DNA from: Onthophagus taurus
Taxonomy: Eukaryota; Arthropoda; Insecta; Coleoptera; Scarabaeidae
Length of the DNA stretch: 64,000 bases
Assembly (NCBI RefSeq): GCF_036711975.1
Contig: NC_091971.1
Coordinates: forward strand, 25,985,501 to 26,049,500
Direction: 5' to 3'
In this document: positions 3,132-26,133 of the stretch, one piece after another
Numbering within the stretch: position 1 is the first letter of the stretch
Layout of the letters: each line of letters opens with the position of its first letter
The notes under the pieces: model-generated
What the model was told of the DNA's origin: nothing
What the model saw: only the letters and a program-made list of their open reading frames with translations
Database searches by the model: none
Program-made: the position numbers and the translations under genes

Positions 3132-3524
3132 CTATAATGCGTCTGATGATAAGAAATTTAAACATAAATGACCACAATTACTTGTGTTATAGGTTTGATA
3201 TTGATGGTGATTATATTTAATAATTACATTATTTCCTGCACTCTTGAAATAATTGACAATTTCTTTACTTGGTTTTAAATTACCAAAACTATCGAAATAA
3301 GTAATTATATTTCCCTTTTTAATATAGGCTGTCCAATGAGTACCAGGTCCTTTCACACTATCCAAGTTAATAATACCTCTTTCATTATTATTAATACGCA
3401 CAGGTAATTTATCTTGCATGAATATCCCTCTAAACTCTGGTATCCCTAATATTTTCACATAACGCATCAAGTCAACGTTTGTTAGCGCTTTCTGCTGTTG
3501 TATGGTTTTTCTTGGCGTGTCTTT
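3132..3524 (-). CDS. Adenain-like cysteine protease, in -1 frame after a slippery site
   Basis: This is a predicted virion maturation protease. The catalytic triad is visible: His in GPGTHWTAY, Asp in YFDSFG and Cys in SNCGHLCLNFL, in the order seen in adenovirus proteases. Similarity to element B starts upstream of the first methionine (LTNVDL here, LTDVEL there), within a frame that overlaps the 3' end of the pVI/pX-like gene. The coordinates run from the -1 slippage point at 3524. An internal ATG at 3459 would lose only part of this N-terminus. The frame from slippage point to stop is 393 nt, exactly as in element B. Expression as a frameshift fusion is therefore favoured over independent initiation. 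Confidence 0.8.
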   Translation of the reverse strand, partial: KDTPRKTIQQQKALTNVDLMRYVKILGIPEFRGIFMQDKLPVRINNNERGIINLDSVKGPGTHWTAYIKKGNIITYFDSFGNLKPSKEIVNYFKSAGNNVIIKYNHHQYQTYNTSNCGHLCLNFLSSDAL

Positions 3525-3919
3525 AAAAAAACACCTAATCCTTTTTTATATGGTTTTAAATACAGACCTTTACCTAAAGCTATTGATTCCATCGTTTGAT
3601 TATGTCTTTGACTTTCCTTGAGTGCCGCTTGTGCTTGCTTCGTTTTATTGACAGCACTTATAACGGAAGCAGTGCCACCTGCTAGAGCTCCTAATGCACT
3701 TAAACCAGCAAATATTGGAATGAACGGAAGTATACCACCGCTTTTTGGAATTGTAATAACTCTAGAACGAGGTTTCTTTTTGACAATACCTTTTACGGCA
3801 CGTAAAGCTAACTTTGCAGCAGATTTCAAATCATTAGTGCTTGACTCTTTTAATTTTATTTTAGCATTTTTAACGGCTTTATTAAAAGAAATCGCTTTTC
3901 CACTTGCTCCTTTCTTCAT
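3482..3919 (-). CDS. pVI/pX-like core protein (unfused form)
   Basis: The 145-aa basic protein has an N-terminal lysine-rich half. A glycine/alanine-rich hydrophobic segment follows IPKSGGILP (about residues 66-85) and could be membrane-active. After it come an amphipathic stretch with ESQRHNQTME and a GLYLKPYKKGLG motif. It matches the C-terminal half of the 300-aa product at 14849-15751, where the same module is fused behind a PLA2 domain. Adenovirus pVI/pX-like roles (membrane lysis, DNA condensation) are inferred from composition and context. It starts the leftward operon, divergent from the ATPase gene. Confidence 0.7.
   Translation of the reverse strand: MKKGASGKAISFNKAVKNAKIKLKESSTNDLKSAAKLALRAVKGIVKKKPRSRVITIPKSGGILPFIPIFAGLSALGALAGGTASVISAVNKTKQAQAALKESQRHNQTMESIALGKGLYLKPYKKGLGVFLKTRQEKPYNSRKR
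3524..3530 (-). promoter_or_regulatory. Predicted -1 ribosomal frameshift slippery site (U UUU UUA)
   Basis: On the minus strand the pVI/pX-like gene reads GTT TTT TTA AAG, which contains T TTT TTA in the correct zero-frame phase (X XXY YYZ). A -1 slip there enters a frame that stays open through the protease to its stop. The zero frame ends at the TAA at 3482-3484. The heptamer type is the one used by well-known retroviral frameshift sites. I could not identify a convincing downstream stem by eye. Confidence 0.65.
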
Positions 3920-5314: not shown

Positions 5315-5388
5315 CTGAATAGTTTCAATAAAACTCTACAGTAAGCACATGCATTAGTCAGTAACCGTTCATTCATTGTACAGAAAAC

Positions 5389-6469: not shown

Positions 6470-6497
6470 ACCTACAATACATTATATCATTTTAGTT

Positions 6498-7762: not shown

Positions 7763-7956
7763 TAGTAATTAGATTTTTTTAAATAAAACAACCTTTTTAA
7801 TATGTTATTTGGCCCTTATTTTAGTAGTATACTTATCTCCTCCGCCTTCAAATTATATGTTTTGTTTAAACGTTTCTTTTGTGCATCAATAGGTTTTATA
7901 CAACTGTATACTAAAACTAAAGTAATTAAAACAATATATATTTTATTATGTTTTAT

Positions 7957-8698: not shown

Positions 8699-8791
8699 TC
8701 TTATTGTATTATTAAATTTACGTTTTAATTAATAAATTAATATTTATTTTTGTTTTTTTATTTTTTGTTCTGTTCAACTGCATTAAACTGG

Positions 8792-12016: not shown

Positions 12017-12030
12017 AGTAGTAGATAAAA

Positions 12031-12145
12031 GCCGATTCTAGAACCTCCTCTCAGAACCTCAGGTCAAGGCCAAGGCCAAGGTCACGTTGAGTGACCATGA
12101 CCTTGACCTTGCCCTGAGGTTCTGGGAGGAGGTTCCAGAATCGGC
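12031..12145. repeat. 115-bp imperfect palindrome near the left terminus
   Basis: The arms start GCCGATTCT and end AGAATCGGC, pair through GAACCTCC/GGAGGTTC and AACCTCAGG/CCTGAGGTT, and meet at GGTCAC-GTTGA-GTGACC around 12088. A single strand could fold into one long hairpin. The mirror copy is 30282-30396. Confidence 0.9.
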
Positions 12146-12403
12146 TATTGCAAAGGGGGTCGTTGACCAGTAACCTTGACCTAAACAATGACCTTTACTT
12201 TGAGCTCACCTCAGGTCAAGATCACGTTTAGTGACCATGACCTTGATCAGTAACCTTGACCTGAACAATGACCTTTACTTTGACCTCAACGGAGACCTTG
12301 AAGTCAACCTTAATTGTGACCATGACATTGACCGTGTACGTGACCTGAAATGAAGGTTACACGACGTGAGGCCATTGAAAACCCCACTTCGGAGGAGGTA
12401 TGC

Positions 12404-12437
12404 TTTAAATAGCAGATAGAAAATCGTGTTCAACAGT
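12404..12437 (+). promoter_or_regulatory. Inward promoter in the left inverted repeat
   Basis: TTTAAATAG at 12404-12412 is followed about 21 bp later by CAACAGTATT (ACAGT at 12433), resembling a TATA box plus arthropod initiator. The first gene starts at 12520. The identical mirror copy in the right repeat would serve the polymerase gene. Confidence 0.6.
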
Positions 12438-12519
12438 ATTGAAGTAAGAGTGTTGTGAACATAAAGAAATTGAGGAACTTGTAGCTCCTATTTTAAGCAG
12501 TTTACATCGCTTAAATATA

Positions 12520-13002
12520 ATGGCATCGAGAAATCCAATTAAAGTCATCGATATGCAAGGGTTTACTTTATCTTCGGGATTTCGAGTTAAAGAATTGGCT
12601 ATCGGTGATGGTGAGTCGATTTCCCATTTCATATTTCAACCTGATATAAGTTATGAAAGACTCAATAAGCGAGAATGTCGACAAGTGCGTTGGGAGGAGA
12701 ATAACTTACACCATTTGCATTACGAGAATGGATATGTGCCCTATAATCAACTGAAAGACATTCTGGAACAGCATACATGCGGAGTGGAGGTGGTGTTTGT
12801 AAAGGGATCTCAAAAAGAAAAGGTATTGAGAGACCTATTATCATCGGTAAAGCCAGTGATTATTAATTTAGAAGATAATATATATTGCCCTTTGCTTTCG
12901 TTGAGTCAAAATTCTTGCGCATATCATTATAAATCGGAAAGCAGTTGTGCAATTGAAAATGTTAAATTAATTTTAAAATTTTTAAAAATGGATTTAGATT
13001 AG
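12520..13002 (+). CDS. Polinton-associated CxxH...C family protein, copy 2 of 3
   Basis: The 160-aa product begins MASRNPIKVIDMQGF and contains KELAIGDGE, a VFVKGSQKE motif near residue 90 and a C-terminal CAYHYKSESSCAIENV, which is the CxxH...C...NV signature of this family. Copy 3 lies in the same element at 18531 but is clearly diverged, so the duplication is old. Function is unknown to me. It is the first gene inside the left repeat, driven by the repeat-borne promoter, with AATAAA at 13022. That position suggests early expression together with the polymerase. Confidence 0.75.
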   Translation: MASRNPIKVIDMQGFTLSSGFRVKELAIGDGESISHFIFQPDISYERLNKRECRQVRWEENNLHHLHYENGYVPYNQLKDILEQHTCGVEVVFVKGSQKEKVLRDLLSSVKPVIINLEDNIYCPLLSLSQNSCAYHYKSESSCAIENVKLILKFLKMDLD

Positions 13003-13550
13003 TGTTAAAATTTAAAATTTAAATAAATTAATTTTTATTGTACTGACTTTTTTTTTTTTATTCAATTTAAATGTATCACATTCCTAATCCTAATATATAA
13101 AATGGAAAAGAAAAACAACCGAATTAAATTTCATTTAATTTATTGAACTCGTCTTTAATAAATGATAAACAATTGCATATCTTTTTAACGTATTATTTAT
13201 GGTGTCAACTCGACGCCCCCGAGTTAGCAGTTCATGATGTTTTTTTTTGGTGTACTCAAGTCGAGTGATGACTCTTCTCGGGTGCTCCCGGAGGAGTGGA
13301 GCATGACCGGGTTGGATTTACTTTGAGCTCACCTCAGGTCAAGATCACGTTGAGTGACTATGACATTGATCAGTAACCTTGACCTGAACAATGACCTTTA
13401 CTTTGACCTCAACGGAGAACTTGAAGTCAACCTTAATTGTGACCGTGACGTCCCCACCTAAAATGATGTGCATAAATAGCAAGTCAGGTTCATAAAAGAT
13501 TAGTTTCATTGAAATCATCCGACGTAGTGGTGACATAACAACGCAGAACA
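13003..13550. other. Intergenic region with promoter for the second rightward unit
   Basis: After the AATAAA at 13022 comes AT-rich sequence, then a GC-richer part (13200-13310) with CTCGACG...CGAGT and TCGAG words. Then follows a 134-bp copy of inverted-repeat sequence (13316-13449). CATAAATAG at 13471-13479 with TTAGTTTCATT near 13500 is a plausible core promoter for the spliced gene that follows. No gene is seen here. Confidence 0.5.
13316..13449 (+). repeat. Internal direct copy of a segment of the inverted repeat
   Basis: This stretch matches 12194-12326 with few changes, from TTTACTTTGAGCTCACC to the TGACC(G/A)TGAC region. It includes the AGGTCA/TGACCT half-sites. It sits about 20-150 bp upstream of a TATA-like box, so the half-site block is shared by at least three promoters of element B. 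Confidence 0.9.
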
Positions 13551-14505
13551 AGTAAGTCCATAAACACTTGTCTTACAGCAGAAGTATTAATGTTATATAT
13601 ACTTAGTGGGTTCCAGACAACAATATACAAAAGCACCGAAGAGAAGTCTCGAGGTTCAACAGGCGGTGTCCAAAAAAGCGAGCATAAGTCCAAAGGTGAT
13701 AAAACCCTCGTTGACACCCGTGGCATCTGAAGAGGTGTTAAAACAAGAAAAGTTTAATACAGTTATAGAGTGTGGTAACAATATGCAAGCGGTCGCTGAT
13801 GGAAAAGATTCGTTTGCAGACTTAAGCCCTTTTATTATGACGCAAAGTGTTAACGGTAATAATGAAGTAGTTTCGAGAATAGATAACATGGAGAGCTTAA
13901 CCAACATGTCGGACAGTACAGTAAGAGCAAGTAGAGGTCCTCTATTTTCGGAAACAGTGTATGCACTAAATAAGAGCCGCACGAAATGTGTGGCAATAGG
14001 ATTAAGTGCTGACTTACATTTTGAACCAGTGGTAAGGTTAATGGGAAAAGGTCAATGTTTAACATTAACGGAAAACGATTGGCACAACATTATTATGTAT
14101 AAGTCAACAATCACAAACAGTTTTGCTAATCAGTCTCCGTCGCAGATAGTGTTGTGTGGTGTCAGTATATCGTGCGATTGGATGGAAAACGTTTGCAAGA
14201 TTTTAAAGTTGGAGAGGGGTGGAGAATATGTATATATTGCATATGAATCGTTGCATGAGCTTTGGAACGTAGCAGATTTAGTAGCAACTCGACTGAAATT
14301 ATTGAGAACTGTGAATTACAAAGCATATTATGATAGTGTTATAAACGCGTTAGCTGCAATGGATGGAGATGTGAAACGTAATATGTTAACGATGCTCAAT
14401 GAATCGTGTTCTGAACAAATATGTATAAGTAAGGAAGTGATGTTGTACAATTTCGATAAAATCTTGTTGGATGTAGATTTGTTTAAATTATTTCACAATC
14501 AATAA
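13551..14505 (+). CDS. Unknown 299-aa protein, start codon completed by splicing
   Basis: I do not recognise this protein. The long frame starts at a GTG (13606-13608) with no nearby in-frame ATG. A 55-bp intron from GTAAGT at 13552 to TTAG at 13606 joins A at 13551 to TG at 13607, making an ATG in the context AACAATGG. The product has a basic, Ser/Lys-rich N-terminus of about 45 residues, a Ser/Thr-rich linker and a globular C-terminal half (CVAIGLSADLHFEPVV..., WHNIIMYKS). It has no element A counterpart. The next gene starts 4 bp downstream, so the two form one unit ending at the AATAAA after 14734. Confidence 0.65.
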
Positions 14506-14509
14506 AGAC

Positions 14510-14734
14510 ATGGGTAAGGTGCGGATTGATGAGAGTAAAAATGAGATGCATAGAATGTATGCATGGACTTATGCGTATAGACAATCACGAAAGTGTAATT
14601 GGGAGGAAATGTATTTAGATCGTCTTAGATTTAAGAATAGAATAAGTTATGTAAATGATATGTTACACCTGTACTTAAGCAGCGAATTTAGAAATAAGAT
14701 TTTTCATGAAAGATTTAAATATGTAATGACTTAA
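14510..14734 (+). CDS. PPP1R15/GADD34-like PP1-binding small protein
   Basis: The 74-aa product has KVRI at residues 3-6. After about 25 residues it reads NWEEMYLDRLRFKNRI and then LSSEFRNKIFHERF. This fits the PPP1R15 C-terminal pattern W-E-x(2-3)-x-DRxRFxxRI followed by an L...(H)R...R element. The RVxF-like docking motif is weaker than in element A because Ile replaces Phe, but the distal helix is better preserved. The inferred role is to bring PP1 to phosphorylated eIF2-alpha so that translation continues. It is cotranscribed with the unknown 299-aa gene and precedes the virion genes. Confidence 0.65.
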   Translation: MGKVRIDESKNEMHRMYAWTYAYRQSRKCNWEEMYLDRLRFKNRISYVNDMLHLYLSSEFRNKIFHERFKYVMT

Positions 14735-14848
14735 AATAAATAAAATTTTTTTTCAAATGTGAGCGTATTATTAACCATCCAATATTCACCGAATAATGTG
14801 CGAAAGCTATTAAATATAATGGTATGAATGTTAGGACAGTGAAACAGT

Positions 14849-15751
14849 ATGCATCGATCAAGCAAACGGTCTGGTCGAGGTATTGTGAATACATTAATCA
14901 ATAAGCTTCCGATAGAACTACATTTGCCAGGTTATAATTATTGCGGTCCGGGAACCAAATTGGTAAAGAGATTAGTTCGTGGAGATCGGGGAGTGAATAA
15001 ATTAGACGACGCCTGTAAAACGCATGATATTGCCTACGCAGCGACATCGAATTTAGCTGAGCGACACATAGCCGATAAAGAGTTGTATAAGACGGCGAAA
15101 GAGCGGTTGAGAAGTAAAGACGCAAGCTTAGGAGAGCGACTATCGTCGGCGTTAGTGTCAACGATAATGAAAGGAAAAACAATAATGGGTATGGGAATGC
15201 AAATTCGTGCCCTAAGACGTAGAGGGACAACTCGTCAGAAGTTGAAACGTGGCGGTAAGTTGTCGTTTACGCAGGCAATGAACTTAGTGCGGCGAGCGAT
15301 TGCACAGACCAACAGTACGAATACAAAGGGAGATGTACAAGTGGGTTACAATCTGTTGAAACCTTATCAAGGTAGAATACTTAAACCGCGCGGAAAAATA
15401 ATCAAGATTCCCAAGACGGGAGGTTTTTTACCCTTAATACTTGCAGCTTTGGGTGCTCTCGGTTCTTTAGGCGGAGGTGCAGCAGCTATTGCAAAAACCG
15501 TAAACGAAGCAAAAATAGCAAGGGAGCAGTTACAAGAAGCCCAACGTCACAATCGGGCTATGGAACCAAAAGCGATCGGCAGCGGTTTGTATATTAAACC
15601 ATATAAGCAAGGTTGCGGACTAGTCATGAAAACGGTATCACGAAAATCAAAGCGACTAAAACGCCCCAAGAGGGCGAACAAAATTGGTACAGGAATGTTT
15701 ATTAATCCATATAAAAAGGGTTGTGGTTATAAAACTGTAGCAAAAAACTAA
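14849..15751 (+). CDS. PLA2 - pVI/pX-like fusion virion protein
   Basis: The 300-aa product carries an N-terminal PLA2 domain: YNYCGPGT with GPG at 33-35, and DACKTHDIAY with His-Asp at 59-60. A basic middle follows, then IPKTGGFLP with a Gly/Ala-rich hydrophobic stretch (about 195-220), EAQRHNRAME, and two copies of a (G)(L/M)(Y/F)I(K/N)PYK(Q/K)GCG motif near the C-terminus. In element A these two halves are separate genes on opposite strands. The PLA2 part would breach membranes during entry and the C-terminal part resembles adenovirus pVI/pX. The last codons GCA AAA AAC TAA form a -1 slippery site leading into the protease frame. Confidence 0.85.
   Translation: MHRSSKRSGRGIVNTLINKLPIELHLPGYNYCGPGTKLVKRLVRGDRGVNKLDDACKTHDIAYAATSNLAERHIADKELYKTAKERLRSKDASLGERLSSALVSTIMKGKTIMGMGMQIRALRRRGTTRQKLKRGGKLSFTQAMNLVRRAIAQTNSTNTKGDVQVGYNLLKPYQGRILKPRGKIIKIPKTGGFLPLILAALGALGSLGGGAAAIAKTVNEAKIAREQLQEAQRHNRAMEPKAIGSGLYIKPYKQGCGLVMKTVSRKSKRLKRPKRANKIGTGMFINPYKKGCGYKTVAKN
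15742..15748 (+). promoter_or_regulatory. Predicted -1 ribosomal frameshift slippery site (A AAA AAC)
   Basis: The heptamer is in the right zero-frame phase (GCA AAA AAC) and lies directly before the TAA stop at 15749-15751. A -1 slip continues as CTA ATA AAA into a frame open to the protease stop at 16140. A possible 7-bp stem (15770-15776 with 15786-15792) lies 21 nt downstream, farther than usual. A pseudoknot was not assessed. Confidence 0.65.
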
Positions 15752-16140
15752 TAAAAATACCCCAACATTCTTTAACGGATGTAGAGTTAAGGCGATATGC
15801 ACGAGCGCTTGATCTGTTAAACTTTCGTGGGGTGTACATGAGAAACAATTTACCGAAGAAAATCCGAAAACGAGAGAGTGGGATAATAAATCTTGATAAT
15901 CGTACGGGTCCCGGTACTCACTGGACAGCTTACAACAAGGATGGTGTAAATGTTAACTACTTTGACAGTTATGGAGATTTACGACCACCGATTGAAGTGG
16001 AGAAGTATTTTATATCGGATGGGGGGAGAAATATTGTGAGGTATAATTATCGACGATATCAAAAAGAAGATCAAACAAATTGTGGACAATTGTGTCTGCA
16101 TTTCTTAGATAGTTTAAATACCAAGGAAGTATCCGTGTAA
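15748..16140 (+). CDS. Adenain-like cysteine protease, in -1 frame after a slippery site
   Basis: The triad residues are His in GPGTHWTAY, Asp in YFDSYG and Cys in TNCGQLCLHFL. Sequence shared with element A begins at LTDVEL...NFRGVYM, about 22 codons before the first ATG at 15838, and no AUG precedes it in this frame. The coordinates start at the -1 slippage point. The frame of 393 nt equals that in element A. A frameshift product would carry the protease on the C-terminus of the PLA2-pVI/pX protein, much as retroviruses make Gag-Pro. A shorter product from 15838 would keep the triad but lose the conserved N-terminus. Confidence 0.8.
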   Translation, partial: LIKIPQHSLTDVELRRYARALDLLNFRGVYMRNNLPKKIRKRESGIINLDNRTGPGTHWTAYNKDGVNVNYFDSYGDLRPPIEVEKYFISDGGRNIVRYNYRRYQKEDQTNCGQLCLHFLDSLNTKEVSV

Positions 16141-16160
16141 GATTAGTCTTGAGAACAACA

Positions 16161-16904
16161 ATGGAACAAGATACAATACATACAAGTTATACATTTACGC
16201 TCACCGGAAGGGGGTCGGAGTTGTCTTGTAACTTTAACCCACCGATTTATTTGAATGAACTCGGTACATACGAGTTAGCTCTTTTAAATTTCGAAACGTT
16301 CAATACGTTACCTAATATCGATTCAACAAACAATATTTTACAATATGAAGATCATATGGGAAATTTTACAGAGAATATTGAAATACCGCTAGGAACATAC
16401 GATATTAACGATATTAACGAATACGTTAAAAAAACATTAACAGCGAGGAATATTCTCAGCGTGACTACACCGGGTACACAGATACGCATAAGAGGTAACA
16501 ATAATACGCAACGTGCTGAGATAAAAACAAACCGGCGAATAAATTTTGCTAGCGATAATTCAATCGGTTCCTTACTTGGTTTTAACCCTAAAGTTATACC
16601 TAAAAACACGATAACAGAATCGGATCATATCGTGAATATAAATAAAACGAATGCATTACAAATTTATTGTAATTTGAGCTCCGGATCGTATACGAATGGA
16701 CAACCCATGCACGTGTTGTATCATTTCTTCCCGAACGTACCGGCTGGTTTTAAAATAATAGAAGCTCCGCAACAACCGATTTACTTACCTGTTACAACGA
16801 ACGTGATTAGTACATTAATAGTACGCATACTTGATCAGGACGGTCAGTTGGTAAACTTCAGAGACGAAGAAGTGACCGTGAGAGTGCACTTGAAATCGGT
16901 GTGA
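16161..16904 (+). CDS. Penton-like minor capsid protein
   Basis: The 247-aa product starts at the ATG at 16161; the TTG twelve bases upstream is not needed. It aligns with 2408-3115 through FTLTGRGSELSCNFNPPIYL, LPNIDSTNN, GSLLGFNP, YHFFPNVPAGFKI and DQDGQLVNFR. A single jelly-roll fold is assigned from memory of Polinton penton proteins and from position. It lies 20 bp after the protease and 17 bp before a 56-aa gene, inside the virion operon. Confidence 0.7.
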   Translation: MEQDTIHTSYTFTLTGRGSELSCNFNPPIYLNELGTYELALLNFETFNTLPNIDSTNNILQYEDHMGNFTENIEIPLGTYDINDINEYVKKTLTARNILSVTTPGTQIRIRGNNNTQRAEIKTNRRINFASDNSIGSLLGFNPKVIPKNTITESDHIVNINKTNALQIYCNLSSGSYTNGQPMHVLYHFFPNVPAGFKIIEAPQQPIYLPVTTNVISTLIVRILDQDGQLVNFRDEEVTVRVHLKSV

Positions 16905-16921
16905 GTAGTAGGGTATTTAAT

Positions 16922-17092
16922 ATGGGTATAGTGTACGACGTTCGAAGAAAAGCACAGGAAAATCTGGGTGATAGAGTAATGTATAAAACGGTACGAAAGG
17001 ATGTAAAACCTAACAGTAAGCGAAAATCAACTACCCAGTTAACACGCGTCAATCGTCAGTATTTAAGCAACTTAGGTTTTCAACTACTATAA
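16922..17092 (+). CDS. Small conserved basic protein between penton and capsid genes (56 aa)
   Basis: It begins MGIVYDVRRKAQENLGD and ends TRVNRQYLSNLGFQLL, the end shared with the 44-aa product at 2284-2418 in element A. The middle is Lys/Arg-rich (KDVKPNSKRKST), which would suit a DNA- or capsid-binding peptide. The stop directly abuts the capsid ATG (TAA then ATG at 17093). Function unknown. Confidence 0.75.
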   Translation: MGIVYDVRRKAQENLGDRVMYKTVRKDVKPNSKRKSTTQLTRVNRQYLSNLGFQLL

Positions 17093-18355
17093 ATGGAGTC
17101 CTTAAACGTCACGGAGAAAATAAAAGTAGATAACTCGATTGTAAGTTACGAATATCATTCCCATCAACCGTTTGGTTCTACTAGCTTCGGTAACAATGAT
17201 GAAATTCGTATAGGCATACCCGAAATAGACAATTACACATTGCCTCATGAAAGTTTTTTGTATGTGGAAGGGAGCGTACGTAAACTGGATGCGAGTGGTA
17301 AAGCAACAAAAGATGCTAGTGCAACTGCAAAATTGATAAATAATCCTGTAGCGTTTATGTTCAGTGATATTCGCTATCTTATAAATGGTGTTCAAATAGA
17401 TGGAGTGAGAAACGTGGGGTTAACATCATGTATGAAAGGATACTTTTCGTATACCCCTCACGATATAATAAAGTTGGCGAACGCAGGTTGGAACATGGGC
17501 GAGGATCTGCTAGGTCAAGTGGTCCCAACATCCCCTGTAACGGATGCAATAATGGATAAAAATGGAAATTTTGGATTGAGTGTACCGCTAAAGACATTAA
17601 TAGGGTTTGCTGAAGATTTTAAAACAATTGTGATGAATGTGAGACAAGAGCTAGTGTTAATTCGTAATAATGATGATAATGATGTGCTTGTGAATACGGT
17701 AGAAGAACCGTTACAGTTAAAAATCGATAAAGTTGTGTGGAGAATGCCCCATCTAGCCGTAGGCTTACGAGAACAATTAGCTCTAACAAAAATAGCAGGA
17801 CGAAATATTGATCTGCAAATACCTTTTCGCAGTTGGGAAGTACATGAATATCCTTCTTTACCTCAAACAACAAAGCATTCATGGGCTGTGAAAACAGCTC
17901 CGCAGTTGGAAACACCTAGATTTATAATAATTGGGTTTCAAACAAAGAAGAAAGGAAAACAGTTGGCGAACATGGCAACCTTTGATAATGTAAAACTCAC
18001 CAATTTGACGGTATTCCTAAACGGTGAACGCTACCCATACGATAATCTGAACGTGGACTTTGATAGTAATCGTGTCGCAGTGTTATATGACATGTATACA
18101 CGCTTTCAAAAGTCCTACTATGGGAAGGAAGGAGAACCATTACTCACTCCGAAACAATTTATTGAAAATTATCCACTGATTGGAATTGATTGTACATATC
18201 AAGCAGAAGCGCTACACAAAAGTGGGGTAGAAATACGGATAGAATTTACGACAAAAAATCCGATTCCTGATGGTACCACAGCATACTGTTTAGTTTTACA
18301 TGATAAGGCGTTTCAATATTCTCCACTAACAAAAATCGTCAAACAAATGACTTGA
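17093..18355 (+). CDS. Major capsid protein (hexon-like, double jelly-roll)
   Basis: The 420-aa product is homologous to the 400-aa product at 1074-2276, sharing HSHQPFGSTSFGNNDEIRI, VRQELVLIRNN, the R(S)(W)EVHEYPSLP region, FLNGERYPYDNLNVDF and a C-terminal IRIEF...YCLVLHD. The double jelly-roll capsid assignment is from remembered Polinton and adintovirus families plus synteny. It is intact and is probably the most abundant virion protein of the operon. Confidence 0.8.
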   Translation: MESLNVTEKIKVDNSIVSYEYHSHQPFGSTSFGNNDEIRIGIPEIDNYTLPHESFLYVEGSVRKLDASGKATKDASATAKLINNPVAFMFSDIRYLINGVQIDGVRNVGLTSCMKGYFSYTPHDIIKLANAGWNMGEDLLGQVVPTSPVTDAIMDKNGNFGLSVPLKTLIGFAEDFKTIVMNVRQELVLIRNNDDNDVLVNTVEEPLQLKIDKVVWRMPHLAVGLREQLALTKIAGRNIDLQIPFRSWEVHEYPSLPQTTKHSWAVKTAPQLETPRFIIIGFQTKKKGKQLANMATFDNVKLTNLTVFLNGERYPYDNLNVDFDSNRVAVLYDMYTRFQKSYYGKEGEPLLTPKQFIENYPLIGIDCTYQAEALHKSGVEIRIEFTTKNPIPDGTTAYCLVLHDKAFQYSPLTKIVKQMT

Positions 18356-18530
18356 GTATGGGGAAAGAAGGGTTGGTAGTGTGTAGTTGGATCGGATCCT
18401 GAGCCGCATCGCACCCGTAGCTCATCATCCGAAATGTGAGACTTCTATATTCAGCGTAAACAAAAAAAAGTCGTAGAGTATAAGTTGTGCGACAGATTTC
18501 TACGGCTGCATAGTATGGATAATCGTGTTG

Positions 18531-19046
18531 ATGTACGGAAGCAAGATGTATTCAAATAAAACTCAATACATAATTCTCGATATACAAGGTTTCATGGTCA
18601 ACGAAGATCAGTTCGTACCTAAAGAATTAGCATCATGTGATAGTAACAAATGCATAACCCACCACGTTTTTCAACCGAGTAGCAGTATAGCTTCATTACC
18701 ATCTAAATATAGGAATACTGCAAACTGGTTAATGACACATCATCATTGCATCGACTGGAAAGTTGGTTTTATCCATCCAATGGAATTCGACGCCATAGTC
18801 AAATATCTGTGTCGGAATGTCAAGAAAGTGTATGTTAAAGGACCTGAAAAAATTAAATTTTTAAGACATATTATTTCCGCGCCGATATTTGCGTTGGAAG
18901 GTAGTATCTATAAACTTGAGATGGGTATACCGAGCTGTGCTTTTCACTCGCGACGAAGAAGTATGTGCGCTCTTTCCAATGTACGCCACTTACAAGAAGT
19001 TGTCGAAGAGGGGGTGCAAAACAAGGATGCGAAAGACAGTCGGTGA
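18531..19046 (+). CDS. Polinton-associated CxxH...C family protein, copy 3 of 3
   Basis: The 171-aa product (ATG at 18531; a second ATG at 18549 is possible) has ILDIQGFMVN, PKELASCDSN, THHVFQPSS, WKVGFIHPMEFD, VYVKGPEKIKFL and CAFHSRRRSMCALSNV. It follows the capsid gene after 175 bp, the same relative position as copy 1 in element A, so copies 1 and 3 are positional equivalents and copy 2 is additional. Function unknown. Confidence 0.75.
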   Translation: MYGSKMYSNKTQYIILDIQGFMVNEDQFVPKELASCDSNKCITHHVFQPSSSIASLPSKYRNTANWLMTHHHCIDWKVGFIHPMEFDAIVKYLCRNVKKVYVKGPEKIKFLRHIISAPIFALEGSIYKLEMGIPSCAFHSRRRSMCALSNVRHLQEVVEEGVQNKDAKDSR

Positions 19047-19096
19047 CTATAAAGCAGAGACAAGTCGTAATGGGGGATAGTTAAGAGCTGGTTGCG

Positions 19097-19432
19097 ATGG
19101 AACAAGTGTTCACTGTGTTTGGGTGTTGGCCACTTACATCTGCCAAGAAAGTGTACAGCGTAATGAAAAAATATGAACAAGATGCCTCATTTGCGAACAT
19201 TCCAGCTCGTGATTTAAAATATTTACCAACACAGTATTATTTCGATAAAGTACCATCTATGGAATTACGAAGAATTTGGACCCAACTACCGTTCGCCTAC
19301 CAGCAATCGAAAATGTTACAAATGAAGTTACCGTGTCTTGAACATTATAATAATGATTGTGCGGAAACTCATTTCGATGGACCACCACCACCTAAAATGC
19401 ATTGTATTAAATGTACGTTAGAAAAGAAATAA
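19097..19432 (+). CDS. Unknown small protein (111 aa)
   Basis: I cannot assign a function. The frame starts at an ATG (MEQVFTVFGCWPLTSAKK), contains IPARDLKYLPTQYYFDKVP in the middle and ends with C....C and CIKC near the C-terminus, so metal binding is possible. It is the last gene before an AATAAA that overlaps its stop, and follows copy 3 of the CxxH...C family by 50 bp. Clean codon structure and placement argue that it is real. Element A has no equivalent. Confidence 0.6.
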   Translation: MEQVFTVFGCWPLTSAKKVYSVMKKYEQDASFANIPARDLKYLPTQYYFDKVPSMELRRIWTQLPFAYQQSKMLQMKLPCLEHYNNDCAETHFDGPPPPKMHCIKCTLEKK

Positions 19433-19492
19433 ATGTTATTTTTTTATCCATATTGATGAGTTTTATTTAAAGAAACCTCTTCACCTCCCCTT

Positions 19493-19696
19493 CCCCCTCC
19501 CCCCCCCTTGAGTCACGGGCGAAGATAAGGTCCGAACGACCTCGCATTCTCAGACAGTATGACCTCCCGTTGGGCCACAGGCGATAACAAGGAGAAAACC
19601 TGGACAACCTCGCATTCCCAGACAGTATGACCTCCCCTTCAGTCACAGGCGATAACAAGGAGAAGACCTAAACGACCTCGCATTCCCAGACAGTTG
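19493..19696. repeat. 68-bp tandem repeat, three copies
   Basis: Units contain GACCTCCC(C/G)TT..., then CACAGGCGATAACAAGGAGAA, then ACCTCGCATTCCCAGACAGTAT. The GACAGTAT ends fall at 19560 and 19628, and the third GACAGT at 19694. The first unit is the most diverged. It lies between two transcription units and encodes nothing obvious. Confidence 0.85.
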
Positions 19697-19891
19697 ACCG
19701 GACAAATACCTGTTCACTAACCCGTACTTAAAGGTAGTGGAAAGTGGGTTACTCCTCACTCCGTGTACAGCAGTCGCTGAGTGATATAGTAGTGTACAAA
19801 AGACGATAATTCCTTAAAAAGTGTGTTTACAATAATAACAGATTTTGTTAAAAACTGTGTTTTTCCGACCACGAAGAAATCGCCTTCTGCT

Positions 19892-20173
19892 AGAAAACCA
19901 TTTGAAAAGTAAGTTACATCAATACAATTTTTATCGGTTTTCTTCATGTATGTTTGTGATGATTTCAGGTATTAATTGTTATACGCTGAGAAAAGTGGTT
20001 CTTCAGCGCATTGCAAACCTGTCAGACGTGATAGAAAACCATTTGAAAAGTAAGTTACATCAATACAATTTTTATCGGTTTTCTTCATGTATGTTTGTGA
20101 TGATTTCAGACATTAATTGTTATACGCTGAGAAAAGTGGTTCTTCAGCGGATTGCAAACTTGTCAGACGTGAG
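19892..20173 (+). repeat. 141-bp tandem duplication, each copy holding a 60-bp intron-like block
   Basis: Copies start AGAAAACCATTTGAAAAGTAAG at 19892 and 20033. In each, GTAAGT opens (19909, 20050) and TTTCAG closes (19968, 20109) a 60-bp block with good donor, acceptor and polypyrimidine-like sequence. The 81-bp segment between the introns is open in one frame. No ATG precedes it in that frame, so a spliced leader for the 20245 or 21471 genes is more likely than a separate gene. Confidence 0.7.
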
Positions 20174-20244
20174 CGAACGTATAATTTTAATAAAATAATC
20201 CAAATTTTTTGTAACCCTTTTGATTCCTTGAAGTCTTTCCCATT

Positions 20245-21402
20245 ATGCTTCACTTAATTGGTAACAGCCACGCTCGTGCAAGCGATAATACCGATGGTAT
20301 GACCGACCCACTGGTTGCCGTGCTGCCACGCAATAACGACAGTACGAATGTTGTTGAGTCAAGCCTACCGTCGTTACCATTATATTGCAGCGGCAACTTT
20401 GACGGTTTGAGTCGTACCATGCAGGATTTCACTACAGACCCACCACTGTACGAGCAAATAATGAATGAGCTCCGGTCACAGCCAGGGAACGACAATGGTG
20501 CGATTGTTACCACCAGTCCAACCTTGTCGTCCTACGGCTTAACTCGCATCAGTATGGAGATACGAGAAGAAGGAACATATCAGGAAGTTGTTGTGCCACC
20601 TGAACCTGCTACCAATCAGGCCGACGTGGTACAACCACTTCCAGATATTGTACATACGGATGTCACAAGTCAAGCACCTGCTGAAAACCAGGTGCTTGCG
20701 GCACCGTCTGTACCAGCGACGGAAGACGTATCCCAACCCTCCGATAGGATATGTGTTTCGCCTGTCTTCTCGAGTGGACCCATACGGTACACATCCCGCC
20801 GTATAAAAAAACGCGTCAACTTGTTGTCAAGGGGTTGCGTGAAACAAACTACCCGCCCAAACCCTTCTCCTGCTTCACAAGACTCCTGTAGATTGCTGCG
20901 CAACGCATTAGCCAAACCTCCCCGTAACACACGAAGAGTACCTACACTCGCTACAGTAACCAGACCTGCAACGGTGGTTACATCTCCACCAGAGGTGACC
21001 ATCGACATCCGTGACAGCCCGCCAACTATCACAACTATCCCACCACAAAATGTGGTGTTCCCACCACCTTTACCTATCCCTACTATCCCGCAGAGGCAAA
21101 ATCTTCCAGCTGTAAATACCGCACATCCCGACCCATGGGTTGATGCGTTTCTGCATTCAACAACCAACTTGGCAAGCAGTCTTTTGTCCCAAGAGGATTT
21201 TTTCATCTTGGGCTTGAAACCTCAATTGCAAACCAAAGTGACGACTTTGGAACATCATAAGCGCCACTTCGTGAACGCGTTGAATGCAGTAAACCAGAAT
21301 CCCACCGTCTGCTTTGCTGCTTCTTCAAACATCCTTAACATGTACAACACCAAAATTAACCTGTATAAGTCCCTTCTCAGGCTGCTGCCTGACAACGGTT
21401 AA
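20245..21402 (+). CDS. Unknown Pro/Thr-rich protein (385 aa)
   Basis: No family recognised. The N-terminal two thirds are low complexity, rich in Pro, Thr, Val and Ser, with a basic patch near residues 185-200 (SRRIKKRVNLLSR). The C-terminal 90 residues look folded and helical (WVDAFLHSTTNLASSLLSQ, LEHHKRHFVNALNAVNQ). This resembles a disordered protein with one terminal interaction domain. It lies in the accessory block between the virion operon and the ATPase operon, downstream of a duplicated intron-like leader. GC content is higher than that of the neighbours, which may indicate separate acquisition. Confidence 0.65.
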   Translation: MLHLIGNSHARASDNTDGMTDPLVAVLPRNNDSTNVVESSLPSLPLYCSGNFDGLSRTMQDFTTDPPLYEQIMNELRSQPGNDNGAIVTTSPTLSSYGLTRISMEIREEGTYQEVVVPPEPATNQADVVQPLPDIVHTDVTSQAPAENQVLAAPSVPATEDVSQPSDRICVSPVFSSGPIRYTSRRIKKRVNLLSRGCVKQTTRPNPSPASQDSCRLLRNALAKPPRNTRRVPTLATVTRPATVVTSPPEVTIDIRDSPPTITTIPPQNVVFPPPLPIPTIPQRQNLPAVNTAHPDPWVDAFLHSTTNLASSLLSQEDFFILGLKPQLQTKVTTLEHHKRHFVNALNAVNQNPTVCFAASSNILNMYNTKINLYKSLLRLLPDNG

Positions 21403-21470
21403 TAGCGTTTTTTTTTGAAGCTCGTTCAGTTTTTTTGTCTCTTGCAGTGTTAACGTTGCAGGAGTTGGCT

Positions 21471-22031
21471 ATGGAGAGCGTTAATTCGACGATTTCCCGT
21501 AAAGACTGTACGTTGCGGTTAGTAGATGTTTTACCAAAGACTCTACTACTAAACGTAATGTACAGCTGGGACATATGCTTCTGGCGTCGAATATCCCGAA
21601 AGGGCGATCGAATCAATCTTGGGGAGGTTTGCTTCCCCACCGTGGAACGCTTTGGAAAGAAAATGTCGCAAGGCACCGTACATAAGTTGTTCCACGGTTC
21701 TCTGGTTGATTGGAGTTCAACTTTCGGAGTGGGTCTTCAGTATCAAGCAAGGTATGTTTTTTATGAATCACATTTGGGCAACCTTTGCTATCGTTGTCGA
21801 CGCCGCCTACACCATATTAGTATAACGAACGTTTTACAACTGGATTGTCGTGTGAAATTGCGCTCGAAAATAAAGTATGCATCTTCTGAACGATTGCAGA
21901 CTATTATTTTAAATAAAAAATATTGGTGTGCGATGTGTTGTCGTGTGTCTTTGTTTCGAGTCTGTTTTAAACCACAACTTGAGGAGGATCAAAGTACTGA
22001 GGAATTGTCGGAGGGATGTCTCAGCAACTAA
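21471..22031 (+). CDS. Unknown CxxC-containing protein (186 aa)
   Basis: The first ATG of the open frame is at 21471. A 3' splice-site-like CTCTTGCAG directly precedes TG TTA ACG in the same frame, so a longer form starting at a spliced A|TG is possible. Two CxxC pairs, CYRC and CAMC, lie about 40 residues apart in the C-terminal half and suggest a zinc-binding domain. The N-terminal half contains WDICFWRRISRKGDR. No family recognised, and no element A counterpart. Confidence 0.55.
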   Translation: MESVNSTISRKDCTLRLVDVLPKTLLLNVMYSWDICFWRRISRKGDRINLGEVCFPTVERFGKKMSQGTVHKLFHGSLVDWSSTFGVGLQYQARYVFYESHLGNLCYRCRRRLHHISITNVLQLDCRVKLRSKIKYASSERLQTIILNKKYWCAMCCRVSLFRVCFKPQLEEDQSTEELSEGCLSN

Positions 22032-22664
22032 TATGTTGTAGGTGGTTTTTTCAAATTTGTACACCATCCTTGTATGATACTGAAAATCGTTCGAATTGAT
22101 GATATGACAACAAGTTCGCTTCCTTTTCACCTTTTCCGCTCCCATGCTTTTGTTTATATGTATTATTAATTATTTATTTGAATATTTACCGTATCTACTT
22201 ATTGTTACCGCTCCCATGCTTTTGTTAATATGTATTATTAATTACTTATTTGAATATTTACCGTATCTACTTATTGTTAATTTAATACTAAGTAGTGTAA
22301 ATTGTACTGTGACTTACACTGCTTTATTTTGTTTAATCACATAACATCTGTATGTGAATAACCCACTGGTGGTTCTACTACATCAACCATACAGATACTT
22401 TTGAAATCATGATAATAAATAATTTTGTAAATTTATGTATACCACGTCTTATTGTAAAATAAATATTGTGTAATATTACGCACGCTTTAAATAACTTTCA
22501 AACTCAATGTTAACAGTTTAGTGTTGTAAACCATTATTTTGAAACAATGATAATAAATAATCTGCTGAAATTTTTTGTATGCTACATTTTATGATAAAAT
22601 AAACATTGTTTTCTACTACGACTTCATTTCTTGTTAATCTCCCGTTCAAGTATCACCCGTCAAC
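22032..22664. other. Noncoding region upstream of the ATPase operon, with repeats
   Basis: A 72-bp direct repeat starting CGCTCCCATGCTTTTGTT occurs at 22137 and 22209, nearly identical. A second, more diverged pair lies at about 22404-22470 and 22540-22612, sharing AATGATAATAAATAAT and AAATAAA.ATTGT. The short open frame across the first repeat is hydrophobic and repeat-derived, so I do not call it. The promoter of the ATPase operon should lie in the last 150 bp, but no unambiguous TATA box stands out. Confidence 0.6.
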
Positions 22665-23366
22665 ATGGTTGAAGACGTTAAGTTTGTTAGCCAACCTTTA
22701 ACACTACCAATCTGTAATCTTCATAACGACTTCGCTGCAAATAAATTTAAACGACATAGCGAATTATTTGGTGGGGAATGTAAACGTGGTTTGATAATTG
22801 GTTCTTCGGGTGCCGGAAAAACAAACGTAATGTTAACTTTATTGACAGCTCTCAACGGGTTGCGCTTTTTGAATGTATATTTGTGCTCTAATTCACTCTA
22901 CCAAATCAAATACGAATTTCTACGACAATTACTTAAACCTATCCGCTCTTGCGGCTATTATGAATACTCAGATGTCGGACGATTTCTACCACCGTCAAAG
23001 GTGAAAGAATATTCAATTATTATTTTTGATGATATTGCTCCTACAGAGCAACAGATTATCAAGGAATATTTTTCATACGGTCGTCATAGAAACGTTGATA
23101 CTTTTTTACTCGCTCAAAGTTATAGCGCCATTTCCAAGCAGCTTTTACGTGACAATTGCAACCTTTTAGTTTTATTTAAACAAGATCTCACTAACTTGAA
23201 ACATATTTACAACGATCATTTGCTAGGGGACATTACGTGGGATGATTTTGTCAGAATTTGTCGAACTTGTTGGGATACACCGCACGGTATATTAGTTATT
23301 GATTTAGATTGCGATAAAAATAACGGACGCTATCGGAAAGGTTTCGATGAGTACATTATACTGTAA
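22665..23366 (+). CDS. DNA-packaging ATPase (FtsK/HerA, A32-like)
   Basis: The 233-aa product has Walker A GSSGAGKTN at about residues 46-54 and Walker B SIIIFDDIAP near 125. QSYSAISKQLLRDN follows, then NLKHIYNDH. It is homologous to 4133-4828 but keeps both Walker B acidic residues. It would drive DNA packaging into the capsid. It opens a compact rightward operon followed by the 386-aa protein, the small protein and the integrase. Confidence 0.92.
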   Translation: MVEDVKFVSQPLTLPICNLHNDFAANKFKRHSELFGGECKRGLIIGSSGAGKTNVMLTLLTALNGLRFLNVYLCSNSLYQIKYEFLRQLLKPIRSCGYYEYSDVGRFLPPSKVKEYSIIIFDDIAPTEQQIIKEYFSYGRHRNVDTFLLAQSYSAISKQLLRDNCNLLVLFKQDLTNLKHIYNDHLLGDITWDDFVRICRTCWDTPHGILVIDLDCDKNNGRYRKGFDEYIIL

Positions 23367-23429
23367 AACCATTGACTTTACGACTGCATGCTCAGTCTCT
23401 GTGCGATCATTACACTATCACGTTGAACT

Positions 23430-24590
23430 ATGAATCGTAATGTTGCACAACAGTTAATAGCTGCGCGAGAAGATGTTAAACATAAAATACGCACTTTGAA
23501 AGGAGATATAAAACAGAAGCAGTCCATTGCCGAAGCTCAACTCGCTCCACTGAAAGAACCTCTGACAGATATTTCCAAAAAATTACAAACTGTCAATTTA
23601 TTAGCGCTCGACAATAAATTCGGGATAAAACGTGATTTATTTACCCCGAAAAAGGAGCAGTCACCAGATATCTCAGCCTTACTGGCTGACTTGCAGAAAC
23701 CTTCTAAAGGACTTAAACTGGAAACTCCTAGAGTGAAACCTAAACGTAGAGTTACGTCAACACCCATTAAACCGGGAGCTAGCATGGATGTTTCACCGGA
23801 ACTCGCACGGAGTCCGCAATTTCTCAGCGACGAAGAGGTGTTCGAGGGTCGAGATACTACACCTGAGTTTTCTGTTCGTGAGTCAGACACATCTTTAGAT
23901 GTCTACGAGCGGGACGCTAGGGAGCAGTTGGCGCGCATGAAAGAGAATATGGAGGGAATGATGGAACAGACAGTTATTAGAGAAGCTTTAGGGCAGCTGG
24001 ACCCCTTACCACGTACCTATGTTACGGGTTTAACAGTAGATGTAAATAACGAGTTCGATCAAACTTACGGTGTTCGTGCACTTACCGATGGATTGTATAT
24101 CGCAAATCAACCAATAACGTTTGACGGGAAAAACATTTTGGTGGGTGAATTTACTTATACAGGAACACCGGGGTTATACGAGTTGTTATTCAAAAATAAA
24201 CCGGGTAAATTTACTTTACCAGATGCGAGAAATTACAAAGATATCTTACAACGTTCGAATGTACATAAAAGAGATTATGACGCTTCAAAAAGTATCATAA
24301 CTGATGATGAAAATGAAAAGTTTGTGAACATAATCAAACCAATTTCCTTGGGTCAAAGACCAAATGTGTACTGGGCTCGATATTGGCCAAAACCTAAAAC
24401 TGGATCAGGTCACTTAAATAAGTTGTTAGTACCTGCTGCAATTAAAGAGTACGAATACTGGGACGACGTGAACGAATTAGTTGATCGGTTGCGTTTACTA
24501 CTTGCTTCCGAAGCAGCAGGTCATACTGCTCATCATAACGAAATTATATCCCTCATAGAGGAATTACGGGAAGCGCAAGTCATTCGTTAA
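23430..24590 (+). CDS. Coiled-coil plus DUF8207-like Polinton protein (386 aa)
   Basis: This is the intact form of the gene broken at 5389-6469. Residues 1-50 are basic and coiled-coil-like (AREDVKHKIRTLKGDIKQKQ). About 60-190 are a disordered, Pro/Ser/Glu-rich linker. About 195-300 form the conserved globular domain (VNNEFDQTYGVRAL, YTGTPGLYELL, ARNYKDILQRSNVHKRDYD). The C-terminus carries WDDVNELVDRLRLLLASEAAGH...IEELREA, probably a helical tail. From memory the domain is listed as DUF8207 in arthropod proteins. The constant link to integrase suggests a role in the virion or in integration, but this is open. Confidence 0.75.
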   Translation: MNRNVAQQLIAAREDVKHKIRTLKGDIKQKQSIAEAQLAPLKEPLTDISKKLQTVNLLALDNKFGIKRDLFTPKKEQSPDISALLADLQKPSKGLKLETPRVKPKRRVTSTPIKPGASMDVSPELARSPQFLSDEEVFEGRDTTPEFSVRESDTSLDVYERDAREQLARMKENMEGMMEQTVIREALGQLDPLPRTYVTGLTVDVNNEFDQTYGVRALTDGLYIANQPITFDGKNILVGEFTYTGTPGLYELLFKNKPGKFTLPDARNYKDILQRSNVHKRDYDASKSIITDDENEKFVNIIKPISLGQRPNVYWARYWPKPKTGSGHLNKLLVPAAIKEYEYWDDVNELVDRLRLLLASEAAGHTAHHNEIISLIEELREAQVIR

Positions 24591-24636
24591 GGGTATATAA
24601 ACTTTTTTCTGTTTCTGTGACGCTTCAGAAGCCAAT

Positions 24637-25044
24637 ATGCCTTTAAACCGTTTTGGTGAACATGGTTCTACATCTATCGATAAATTTGGTAAGCATGTTC
24701 ACCACCATGTTATACAGAACCACATAGCAAGATCCGAAGTTCTACAACCTTCATCAACATTTATTTTAACTTTACGTGGTGATGGAGATGTTGATCCAAA
24801 AACAAAACTTTATAAAATCACAAACAAAAGTGGAATTACGGATTACATCAATTCTTTCTACGAAGGTATGATAAAAGATGTTGTAAAGTCCGCTCATGTT
24901 CAGTTACTTGTTAACGATATCGTTATTAAGTCGCTCCAGGGAGTTCAACTCAAACGCGGAGATACCATTAAGTGTAAAAATAATGCACCGATAGGAGGAC
25001 TACCTTTTCTTGTAGAGTTGTTGATTGAAGGGGTTGTAGAGTAA
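24637..25044 (+). CDS. Small conserved Polinton protein (135 aa)
   Basis: Homologue of 6498-6866. An N-terminal His-rich segment (DKFGKHVHHHVIQNH) precedes a likely beta-rich domain (TFILTLRGDGDVD...HVQLLVNDIVI...VQLKRGDTIKCKNN...FLVELLIEG). Function unknown. The stop overlaps the integrase start as TAATG, which suggests coupled translation. Confidence 0.7.
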   Translation: MPLNRFGEHGSTSIDKFGKHVHHHVIQNHIARSEVLQPSSTFILTLRGDGDVDPKTKLYKITNKSGITDYINSFYEGMIKDVVKSAHVQLLVNDIVIKSLQGVQLKRGDTIKCKNNAPIGGLPFLVELLIEGVVE

Positions 25045-25979
25045 TGGTTAGTGTTAAGCGAGATCTCGTTAACGAACTACATGCACCTGCGAGACGACAT
25101 TATCGGCGACGCCGCGTTCTGCTTCACGGACTATTGGATCTTTATCAAGCTGATTTGGTTGAAATGATCCCATATGCGTCGGTCAATAAAGGTTACAAGT
25201 ATATACTGACTGTTATCAACGCTTTTTCAAAATACGCATGGGCCTTACCACTCAAAACCAAAACTGGGAAAGAGGTTACTCAAGCTATGAAGGACATTTT
25301 GCATAGTAAAAAGAATATTACTCCGAGCAACTTACAAACCGATAATGGGAAAGAGTTTTACAATAGCGATTTTCAAAAATTAATGGAACAACTTAACATT
25401 AATCATTACAGCACCTATTCCACTTTAAAAAGCTCGATTATCGAACGGTTTAATAGAACCCTAAAAAATAAAATGTGGAAAGAATTTAGTATGCAAGGAA
25501 ATTATCGCTGGTTAGACTTACTACCCAAATTACTAAAATCTTACAACAACACAATACATCGCACCATTCACATGAAACCTTCAGCTGTTAATCGACGAAA
25601 TGAATCTGCTCTGTTAAATACTGTATACAATTCCATTAAAGTTGTCGACCCCAACCACCATAAATTTAATGTGGGGGAACACGTGCGAATTAGCAAGTAC
25701 AGACACGCTTTTGCTAAAGGTTACCAACCAACTTGGTCCAATGAAATTTTCACCATAGCGACAGTTCAAAATACTAATCCCAGGACTTACCTTATTAAAG
25801 ATGGTAGAGGAGAACCCATTCTTGGAGCATTTTACGACGAAGAATTACAACGTGTGAAACACCCGGATGTATTTTTAATTGAAAAAGTTCTTCGTCGAAA
25901 AGGAAATAAAGTCCGAGTGAAATGGTTGGGAATGGATAGCTCTCATAATTCTTGGATTGCAAAAAAGGATGTATTATAA
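25044..25979 (+). CDS. Polinton integrase (DDE, retroviral-type) with C-terminal chromodomain
   Basis: The 311-aa product has catalytic Asp in LYQADLVEM, Asp in LQTDNGKEF and Glu in SSIIERFNRTLK, with 33 residues between the last two. The C-terminus EKVLRRKGNKVRVKWLG...NSWI is chromodomain-like. It aligns with 6839-7762. The 6-bp TTAAGG duplication around element B is the footprint expected of its activity. It is the last gene of the rightward operon and converges on the polymerase gene, with AATAAA at 25995-26000. Confidence 0.95.
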   Translation: MVSVKRDLVNELHAPARRHYRRRRVLLHGLLDLYQADLVEMIPYASVNKGYKYILTVINAFSKYAWALPLKTKTGKEVTQAMKDILHSKKNITPSNLQTDNGKEFYNSDFQKLMEQLNINHYSTYSTLKSSIIERFNRTLKNKMWKEFSMQGNYRWLDLLPKLLKSYNNTIHRTIHMKPSAVNRRNESALLNTVYNSIKVVDPNHHKFNVGEHVRISKYRHAFAKGYQPTWSNEIFTIATVQNTNPRTYLIKDGRGEPILGAFYDEELQRVKHPDVFLIEKVLRRKGNKVRVKWLGMDSSHNSWIAKKDVL

Positions 25980-26133
25980 TTTTTACACTAAGAAAATAAA
26001 AAACTTTTTTTTTTAATTTCGTTGATTTTATTTCAAGTAACCTTTTTAACAACCTACTTTCTACTTTATATACAAGTTTTGTGATACAAGCAAGTATTTT
26101 TTTTTTTTTACAAATTAACTGATCGCAATTTAA
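25980..26133. terminator. Convergent 3' region between integrase and polymerase genes
   Basis: AATAAA at 25995-26000 serves the rightward operon, and TTTATT at 26027-26032 (AATAAA on the minus strand) serves the leftward polymerase transcript. Long T tracts lie at about 26005-26014 and 26096-26111. No gene here. Confidence 0.7.

Follow-up and report, generated by a model that had tools for sequence, protein, structure and literature searches.

Predicted −1 ribosomal frameshifting between the core gene and the adenain-like protease of Onthophagus taurus Polintons

The Polinton element B, located in a 64,000-nt window of the Onthophagus taurus genome (the window being the whole stretch of DNA analysed), very probably makes its adenain-like protease by programmed −1 ribosomal frameshifting, as a core-protease fusion. 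Judged from sequence, this is the best explanation for a core gene that ends in the slippery heptamer A AAA AAC and a protease that continues in the −1 frame. The initial annotation had predicted such a Gag-Pro-like fusion, and the prediction is supported: the heptamer, its phase and an open, coding −1 frame are conserved, and seven of eight families lack an AUG ahead of the conserved protease sequence.

Element B harbours 443-nt terminal inverted repeats (12020-12462 and 29965-30407, 99% complementary) and a 6-bp target duplication, TTAAGG, the left copy of which finishes 3 nt short of 12020. Together with an rve integrase (PF00665, 2.8e-13) and an A32-like packaging ATPase (PF04665, 1.8e-07), both detected with Pfam, the double jelly roll capsid protein and the adenain-like protease, these features identify element B as a Polinton/Maverick. 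Its main features are the following:

12020..30407, no strand assigned: element B, a Polinton, with terminal inverted repeats and target duplication
14849..15751, plus strand: core gene, 300 aa, with a phospholipase A2 (PLA2) domain and putative pVI/pX-like C-terminal motifs
15733..16140, plus strand: adenain-like protease in the −1 frame (stop to stop)
15742..15748, plus strand: slippery heptamer A AAA AAC, in phase
15749..15751, plus strand: zero-frame stop TAA, immediately 3' of the heptamer
15838..15840, plus strand: sole AUG in the protease frame, past the first helix, where the first strand ends
17093..18355, plus strand: major capsid protein, double jelly roll (PF21738, E 4.8e-105)
26134-29403, minus strand: polymerase-like frame, 1089 codons

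In the polymerase-like frame, the candidate for a protein-primed family B DNA polymerase, a YTDTDS motif was spotted by eye, and Pfam detected only Endonuclease_7 (the Endonuclease VII domain, PF02945, E 1.5e-05) and zf-MYST. A 153-bp satellite array adjoins element B at 30404-33998 (TRF) and seemingly continues to 64000. Satellite seemingly lies to the left of the element too, at about 9984-12016, as indicated by the 153-nt periodicity of the 9984-11516 ORF; the long open frames of this satellite look like repeat artefacts.

The PLA2 domain of the core protein was detected with PF08398 (E 2.2e-14), and of 7994 candidates that were scored, 832 match the protein at E <= 0.001. As the initial annotation had read, the core gene ends GCA AAA AAC TAA, with the heptamer in the phase X XXY YYZ. 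The −1 frame begins nine bases ahead of the heptamer, overlaps the core ORF by 19 nt (core stop counted) and is open from 15733 to 16137, which bears out the claim of a stop-free passage into the protease. The whole frame contains one ATG, at 15838, and the junction itself reads TAATA, with ATA at 15751-15753. Conserved protease sequence had been claimed upstream of the AUG at 15838, and LTDVELRRYARALDLLNFRGVY indeed aligns with relatives there in a 38-sequence alignment.

The AlphaFold2 model of the protease (mean pLDDT 91.8) has a helix at residues 11-20 and a strand at residues 26-31, and the Met is residue 31. According to this model, initiation at 15838 would cost the protease its first helix and most of its first strand. 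Conserved residues of the pre-AUG stretch in the 38-sequence alignment, numbered from the codon at 15748, are the invariant F26 and the nearly invariant L9, R27, G28 and M31. His58, Asp73, Gln105 and Cys112, which we take to be the catalytic centre of adenain type, are also invariant. The best PDB match of the model in Foldseek was 1nln (E 1.2e-06, TMq 0.72), and profile matches included 6lj9 (ASFV S273R, E 1.2e-04) and 1avp (adenain, E 4.6e-04). The element B protease possesses both the fold and the His-Asp/Glu-Gln-Cys centre of an adenain.

A second Polinton, element A, was observed at about 189-8754 of the window, where a 59-nt inverted repeat (189-247 / 8696-8754) may mark its ends. Its core gene lacks the PLA2 domain, and its junction carries U UUU UUA:

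3482..3919, minus strand: short core ORF of element A without PLA2 domain; its C-terminus resembles that of PLA2 core proteins
3524..3530, minus strand: in-phase heptamer T TTT TTA (U UUU UUA)
3132..3545, minus strand: protease of element A in the −1 frame, with no AUG ahead of LTNVDL

The genome (290.8 Mb, 33 contigs) was searched with the window core protein, protease P0020 and the core proteins P0206, P0153 and P0223. The Polinton load is very high, with at least 131 core-gene and at least 150 protease matches. Ninety of the 131 places found with the window core protein were taken (L001-L090, L007 being the window's own element B), 20 of the 150 found with the protease (L091-L110), and 21 from the 139, 143 and 139 places found with P0206, P0153 and P0223, respectively (L113-L133). 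These loci and element A of the window give 132 junction loci, a part of the places found, which belong to eight families:

Family A (element A; short core without PLA2 domain): gtT TTT TTA, 13-16 codons before the stop
Family B (element B of the window): gcA AAA AAC TAA
Family C: tcA AAA AAC TAG; core 60% identical to that of the window
Family D: caA AAA AAC TTG or TTT TAA; core 47% identical to that of the window
Family E: tcA AAA AAC TGA; core 62-63% identical; one copy, with the protease broken downstream
Family F: tcA AAA AAC, then five sense codons, then the stop
Family G: caA AAA AAC TTT TAA
Family H: agA AAA AAC TAA; one junction copy, L125, the second, L126, being decayed

In all eight families the protease lies in the −1 frame, and the heptamer is A AAA AAC in seven of them and U UUU UUA in family A. 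An in-phase heptamer of either kind, from which the −1 frame runs without a stop as far as the beginning of the protease match, was present in 124 of the 132 loci (101 with A AAA AAC and 16 with T TTT TTA among the first 125, and A AAA AAC in seven of seven more), where only AAAAAAC and TTTTTTA were scanned for and the −1 frame was checked solely between the heptamer and the match start. These 124 loci have the canonical −1 signal, X XXY YYZ in zero-frame phase within the ORF overlap. Relatives without a slippery heptamer at this junction had been named beforehand as evidence against the prediction; the comparison, once run, found one kept at 124 of 132 loci in eight families. Upstream of the heptamer, the core frame has no stop for 25 codons or more in 121 of these loci, and 113 of the 132 also pass a stricter tally that requires this together with a −1 frame free of stops over 100 codons or more. 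In the 11 loci that pass without being strict (L039, L042, L045, L051, L075, L078, L086, L093, L105, L106 and L107), either the core frame is short or the protease frame meets an early stop. Seven of the eight failing loci (L033, L052, L054, L059, L070, L119 and L126) are decayed or rearranged, and the eighth, L077, is without a protease match.

The stretch ahead of the AUG is coding, since differences among 15 pairs of six families (family F was omitted because of its length) fall 126/65/203 on positions 1/2/3 of the −1-frame codons. The −1 frame is conserved as protein, as in a canonical −1 signal. A Met codon in this frame ahead of the L(T/S)(N/D) motif was found in one of the 124 passing loci, L075, the single decayed copy of family E, where an ATG lies inside the core gene, nine codons 5' of the heptamer. 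The motif itself is absent from L105 owing to a stop, and in families A and F the first Met sometimes lies a few residues into the conserved stretch. The family-H protease frame of L125 (G000:C10:15042900-15043950) runs for 137 codons with no ATG, even at the Met that its relatives have in FRGVFM.

The missing AUG might reflect start-codon loss in a decayed copy, with the protease no longer being made in family B. The closest listed protease relative, P0001 (84%), has a gene-model M at the ATA of the window, an M in a protease gene model standing for ATG, GTG or TTG alike. However, no passing family-B locus has an AUG at this place, and the AUG is missing in six other families as well. Thirty-one places, the window's own included, match the window core protein at the top score (100%), and in 30 of 30 fetched copies with such a core the protease match over residues 1-130 is 99-100% identical. 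Family B has thus spread recently while AUG-less. Start-codon decay was rejected on the family comparison, and we give it next to no credence.

Termination-reinitiation, or separate initiation at or near the core stop, would yield a free protease, and some relatives may have TAATG at this place. The stop lies immediately behind the heptamer in families B, C, E and H, and family E has the in-frame ATG within its core gene. Besides, 25 of the 120 listed protease models start 0-4 residues ahead of the (I/L)P motif, for example P0001 (MSIPHH), P0002 (MKLPHH) and P0004, and others begin further upstream, across the junction. On the other side, all passing loci but one (123 of 124, covering seven of the eight families) have no −1-frame AUG ahead of the conserved motif; sense codons separate heptamer and stop, five in family F and 13-16 in family A; and reinitiation requires neither A AAA AAC nor its phase. 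Furthermore, the M of the gene models aligns with I or V of the AUG-less families, as at a hydrophobic residue. The near-cognate codons between the heptamer and L(T/S)(N/D) vary by family in kind and place: ACG and ATA in A, ATA in B and C, AGG in D, CTG, ATT and TTG in E, ACG in F, AGG, CTG and AAG in G, and ATT and CTG in H. Near-cognate initiation was therefore rejected as a general route. We regard reinitiation as improbable for the families of this genome, although a start codon near the junction may serve in some relatives, to go by their gene models, and frameshifting need not be the sole route everywhere.

Could the heptamer be there by chance? In-phase slippery heptamers occur 45 times in 4681 codons (nine of the 45 come from the repeated satellite ORF), and the chance of one in a 5-codon overlap is about 5% for one family. 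Chance was rejected because the arrangement recurs in eight families, which are not independent events owing to their shared descent; families C, D and E, the only ones for which identity was read, share just 47-63% core identity with the window. The junction Lys-Asn is encoded A AAA AAC in six of six families examined, and family H makes a seventh, compared with none of five internal Lys-Asn pairs of the same genes, a comparison that covers just the last 90-odd codons of families F and G. Codon usage alone would put A/AAA/AAC at a Lys-Asn site with a joint probability of about 0.09. Two of the five internal pairs are A AAA AAT, so slippery-like heptamers also arise by chance in these A-rich genes. 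The junction arrangement is neither chance nor decay.

RNA polymerase, rather than the ribosome, might slip on the A6-A7 (or T6) run and give some mRNAs in which the frames are joined, and a homopolymer run of six or seven is indeed present at the junctions shown. Such transcriptional slippage needs no codon phase, yet these junctions keep X XXY YYZ; a C follows the run in all seven A-run families, and the runs remain short. It seems to us slightly less probable again than reinitiation. None of the rivals accounts jointly for a phase that is conserved, a C that follows the A-run and an AUG that is missing, entirely so in family H, and ribosomal frameshifting is the reading that we follow below.

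Relatives elsewhere were compared at the protein level, the nucleotide junctions being read from this one genome. Counts of proteins refer to the 120 best of each set of matches (357, 832 and 2144). Among the 119 listed PLA2 homologues, 105 end in Lys-Asn followed by 0, 1 or 2 residues (31, 33 and 41, respectively), and elsewhere in these proteins Lys-Asn occurs at 0.38% per position. Among 180 core proteins (those listed minus the window's own, with P0125 probably from the same species), Lys-Asn occurs within the 16 C-terminal residues of 148, and in 143 of these no more than two residues follow it. Gly-(Leu/Val/Ile)-Phe-Leu was found in 18 of the 32 proteins lacking Lys-Asn versus 28 of the 148 having it (Fisher p 6.5e-5, uncorrected for kinship of the proteins). 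It is possible that the Phe-Leu of those species is encoded by U UUU UUA, as in element A. Fourteen of the 180 have neither Lys-Asn nor Phe-Leu: six appear by eye to be cut short or mis-modelled (P0143, P0145, P0207, P0242, P0248 and P0262), four end in a lysine run (P0259, P0265, P0273 and P0283), and four, which do not look truncated by eye, have none of the three endings (P0250, P0278, P0288 and P0299).

Three Polinton-like proteins are filed as bacterial, namely P0213, P0108 (named Enterobacter cloacae complex sp. 2DZ2F20B) and P0244 (Pseudogracilibacillus), and are probably insect DNA within bacterial assemblies. The scan of viral contigs with the protease and its alignment revealed no relative; the scan with the PLA2 alignment gave two loci, L111 and L112 (39% identity over 50 residues), which were excluded from every count. 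Scans of a set of genome contigs and of plasmids likewise revealed none.

Seven PLA2/protease pairs, paired by contigs of equal length without a check of co-location, were back-translated in two frames. The four pairs whose protease model starts 5' of the junction fit in the −1 register only, with AAAAAAY twice and AAAAAAC twice. No consistent register was found for the three pairs whose model starts past the junction (P0124/P0002, P0148/P0036 and P0140/P0034), and no fit was obtained for P0049 or P0014 with any of the 119 PLA2 tails. Among 1547 cross-pairings there were 123 fits of at least 12 codons in −1 and none in +1; most of the −1 fits share an LKPYSKNC-type tail and hence are not independent.

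A spliced mRNA, or a separate one from a downstream promoter, could supply the protease with its own start codon. In Exocentrus adspersus the gene model P0262 joins PLA2 and protease in one protein as though an intron were modelled, and the O. taurus record P0125, which is 99.3% identical to the family-C core protein of this genome, is labelled isoform X1. But P0262 skips the protease N-terminus, with its conserved first helix, and this fusion is probably an automatic annotation repair of the frame change. In addition, the −1 frame is uninterrupted and codes for protein all the way from the heptamer, and an internal transcript of family H would have no AUG to start from. A separate or spliced mRNA appears to us a still fainter prospect than transcriptional slippage. 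Taking ribosomal frameshifting as the explanation, we think it fairly likely that the core-adenain −1 frameshift is an old, general strategy of insect Polintons/adintoviruses, selectively kept through the interchange of A AAA AAC and U UUU UUA.

Downstream of the heptamer of element B, a stem enclosing a further stem is predicted:

15757..15764, plus strand: 5' arm of the stem, ATACCCCA, 8 nt past the heptamer
15828..15835, plus strand: 3' arm of the stem, TGGGGTGT, pairing with 15757-15764

The 90-nt piece of family B has an MFE of -28.7 (z -3.3, p 0.003 against 300 synonymous recodings and p 0.006 against 500); the 60-nt piece gave nothing significant (p 0.64). Family F has a hairpin from 9 nt downstream (60-nt z -4.8, p < 1/300). 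These p values are uncorrected for nine sequences at two lengths, and family H was folded without a null. Family C has a predicted stem positioned as that of family B (ATACCTCG / CGGGGTAT) and family E a related one, neither of them significant. Inspection by eye revealed a pair changed on both sides, A-U in B and G-C in C and E, and a second, C-G in B and U-A in E. In families A, D and G no structure stood out significantly against the synonymous null. The folding models back a downstream stem-loop in families B and F only, and as a general stimulator it is unproven.

In the proposed mechanism, most ribosomes on the PLA2/pVI-like core gene would halt at the TAA at or just past the heptamer and release core protein. 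A minority would slip one base back on A AAA AAC (U UUU UUA in the lineage of element A), enter the protease frame and produce a minor core-protease fusion. The fusion would fix a low protease:core ratio and bring the protease into the particle, Gag-Pro-like. We infer the slippage, its rate, virion incorporation and any later self-cleavage. The joining of a pVI-like C-terminus to adenain may, speculatively, be functionally apt, because in adenoviruses, where pVI and adenain are separate gene products, the peptide at the C-terminus of pVI activates the protease.

If the frameshift is such an old, general strategy, it would let these dsDNA elements dose and package their protease the Gag-Pro way, and would imply that particle building is under selection in these families at least. 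Conservation of such a case among Polinton families would mean that they and retroviruses converged on one solution for protease dosage, and would speak indirectly for selection on virion assembly in Polintons, which is a standing question. The frameshift may also account for the missing N-terminus in 41 of the 120 listed protease gene models.

A 2021 review counts relatively few eukaryotic DNA viruses among the known users of frameshifting (PMC8310308). In a search of the Polinton, adintovirus and Maverick frameshift literature that lay mostly outside subscription papers, the sole relevant statement was in a 2024 preprint, the accessible text of which suggests hypothetical −1 frameshifts in the adintovirus Penton and potential Hexon-Adenain fusions, Hexain (PMC11071296); the accessible parts of PMC12567637 and PMC8363768 contain no report of this frameshifting. 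The initial annotation knew of no report for Polintons, which holds in these sources for a PLA2/pVI-adenain case and needs amending for Penton and Hexon-Adenain. Going by that same portion of the preprint, its cases resemble element B in concerning the same element group and in reaching adenain via a predicted −1 frameshift, and differ in that the upstream gene is hexon or penton, rather than PLA2/pVI, and in being KnotInFrame predictions in some genomes.

Similar to retroviral Gag-Pro and Gag-Pro-Pol, element B has its core stop at a canonical heptamer or close to one and its protease in the −1 frame; a minority fusion is expected, and the same two heptamers are used. A AAA AAC is the heptamer of the MMTV and HTLV-2 type, and U UUU UUA that of the HIV-1 type. 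Unlike retroviruses, element B is a dsDNA transposon/virus, and its PLA2/pVI-like core and adenain-like protease are unrelated to Gag and the aspartic protease; it would work alike without belonging to the retroviral Gag-Pro systems. With adenovirus it shares the adenain fold (1nln being the best PDB match) and a putative pVI-like partner. However, the pVI-like C-terminus of element B would be joined to the protease by frameshifting. The integrase, ATPase, capsid, protease, terminal inverted repeats and 6-bp duplication are those of Polintons/Mavericks and adintoviruses (Eupolintoviridae). The PRO gene of Polintons/Mavericks is usually depicted as its own ORF, whereas the protease of element B would be frameshift-fused to the core.
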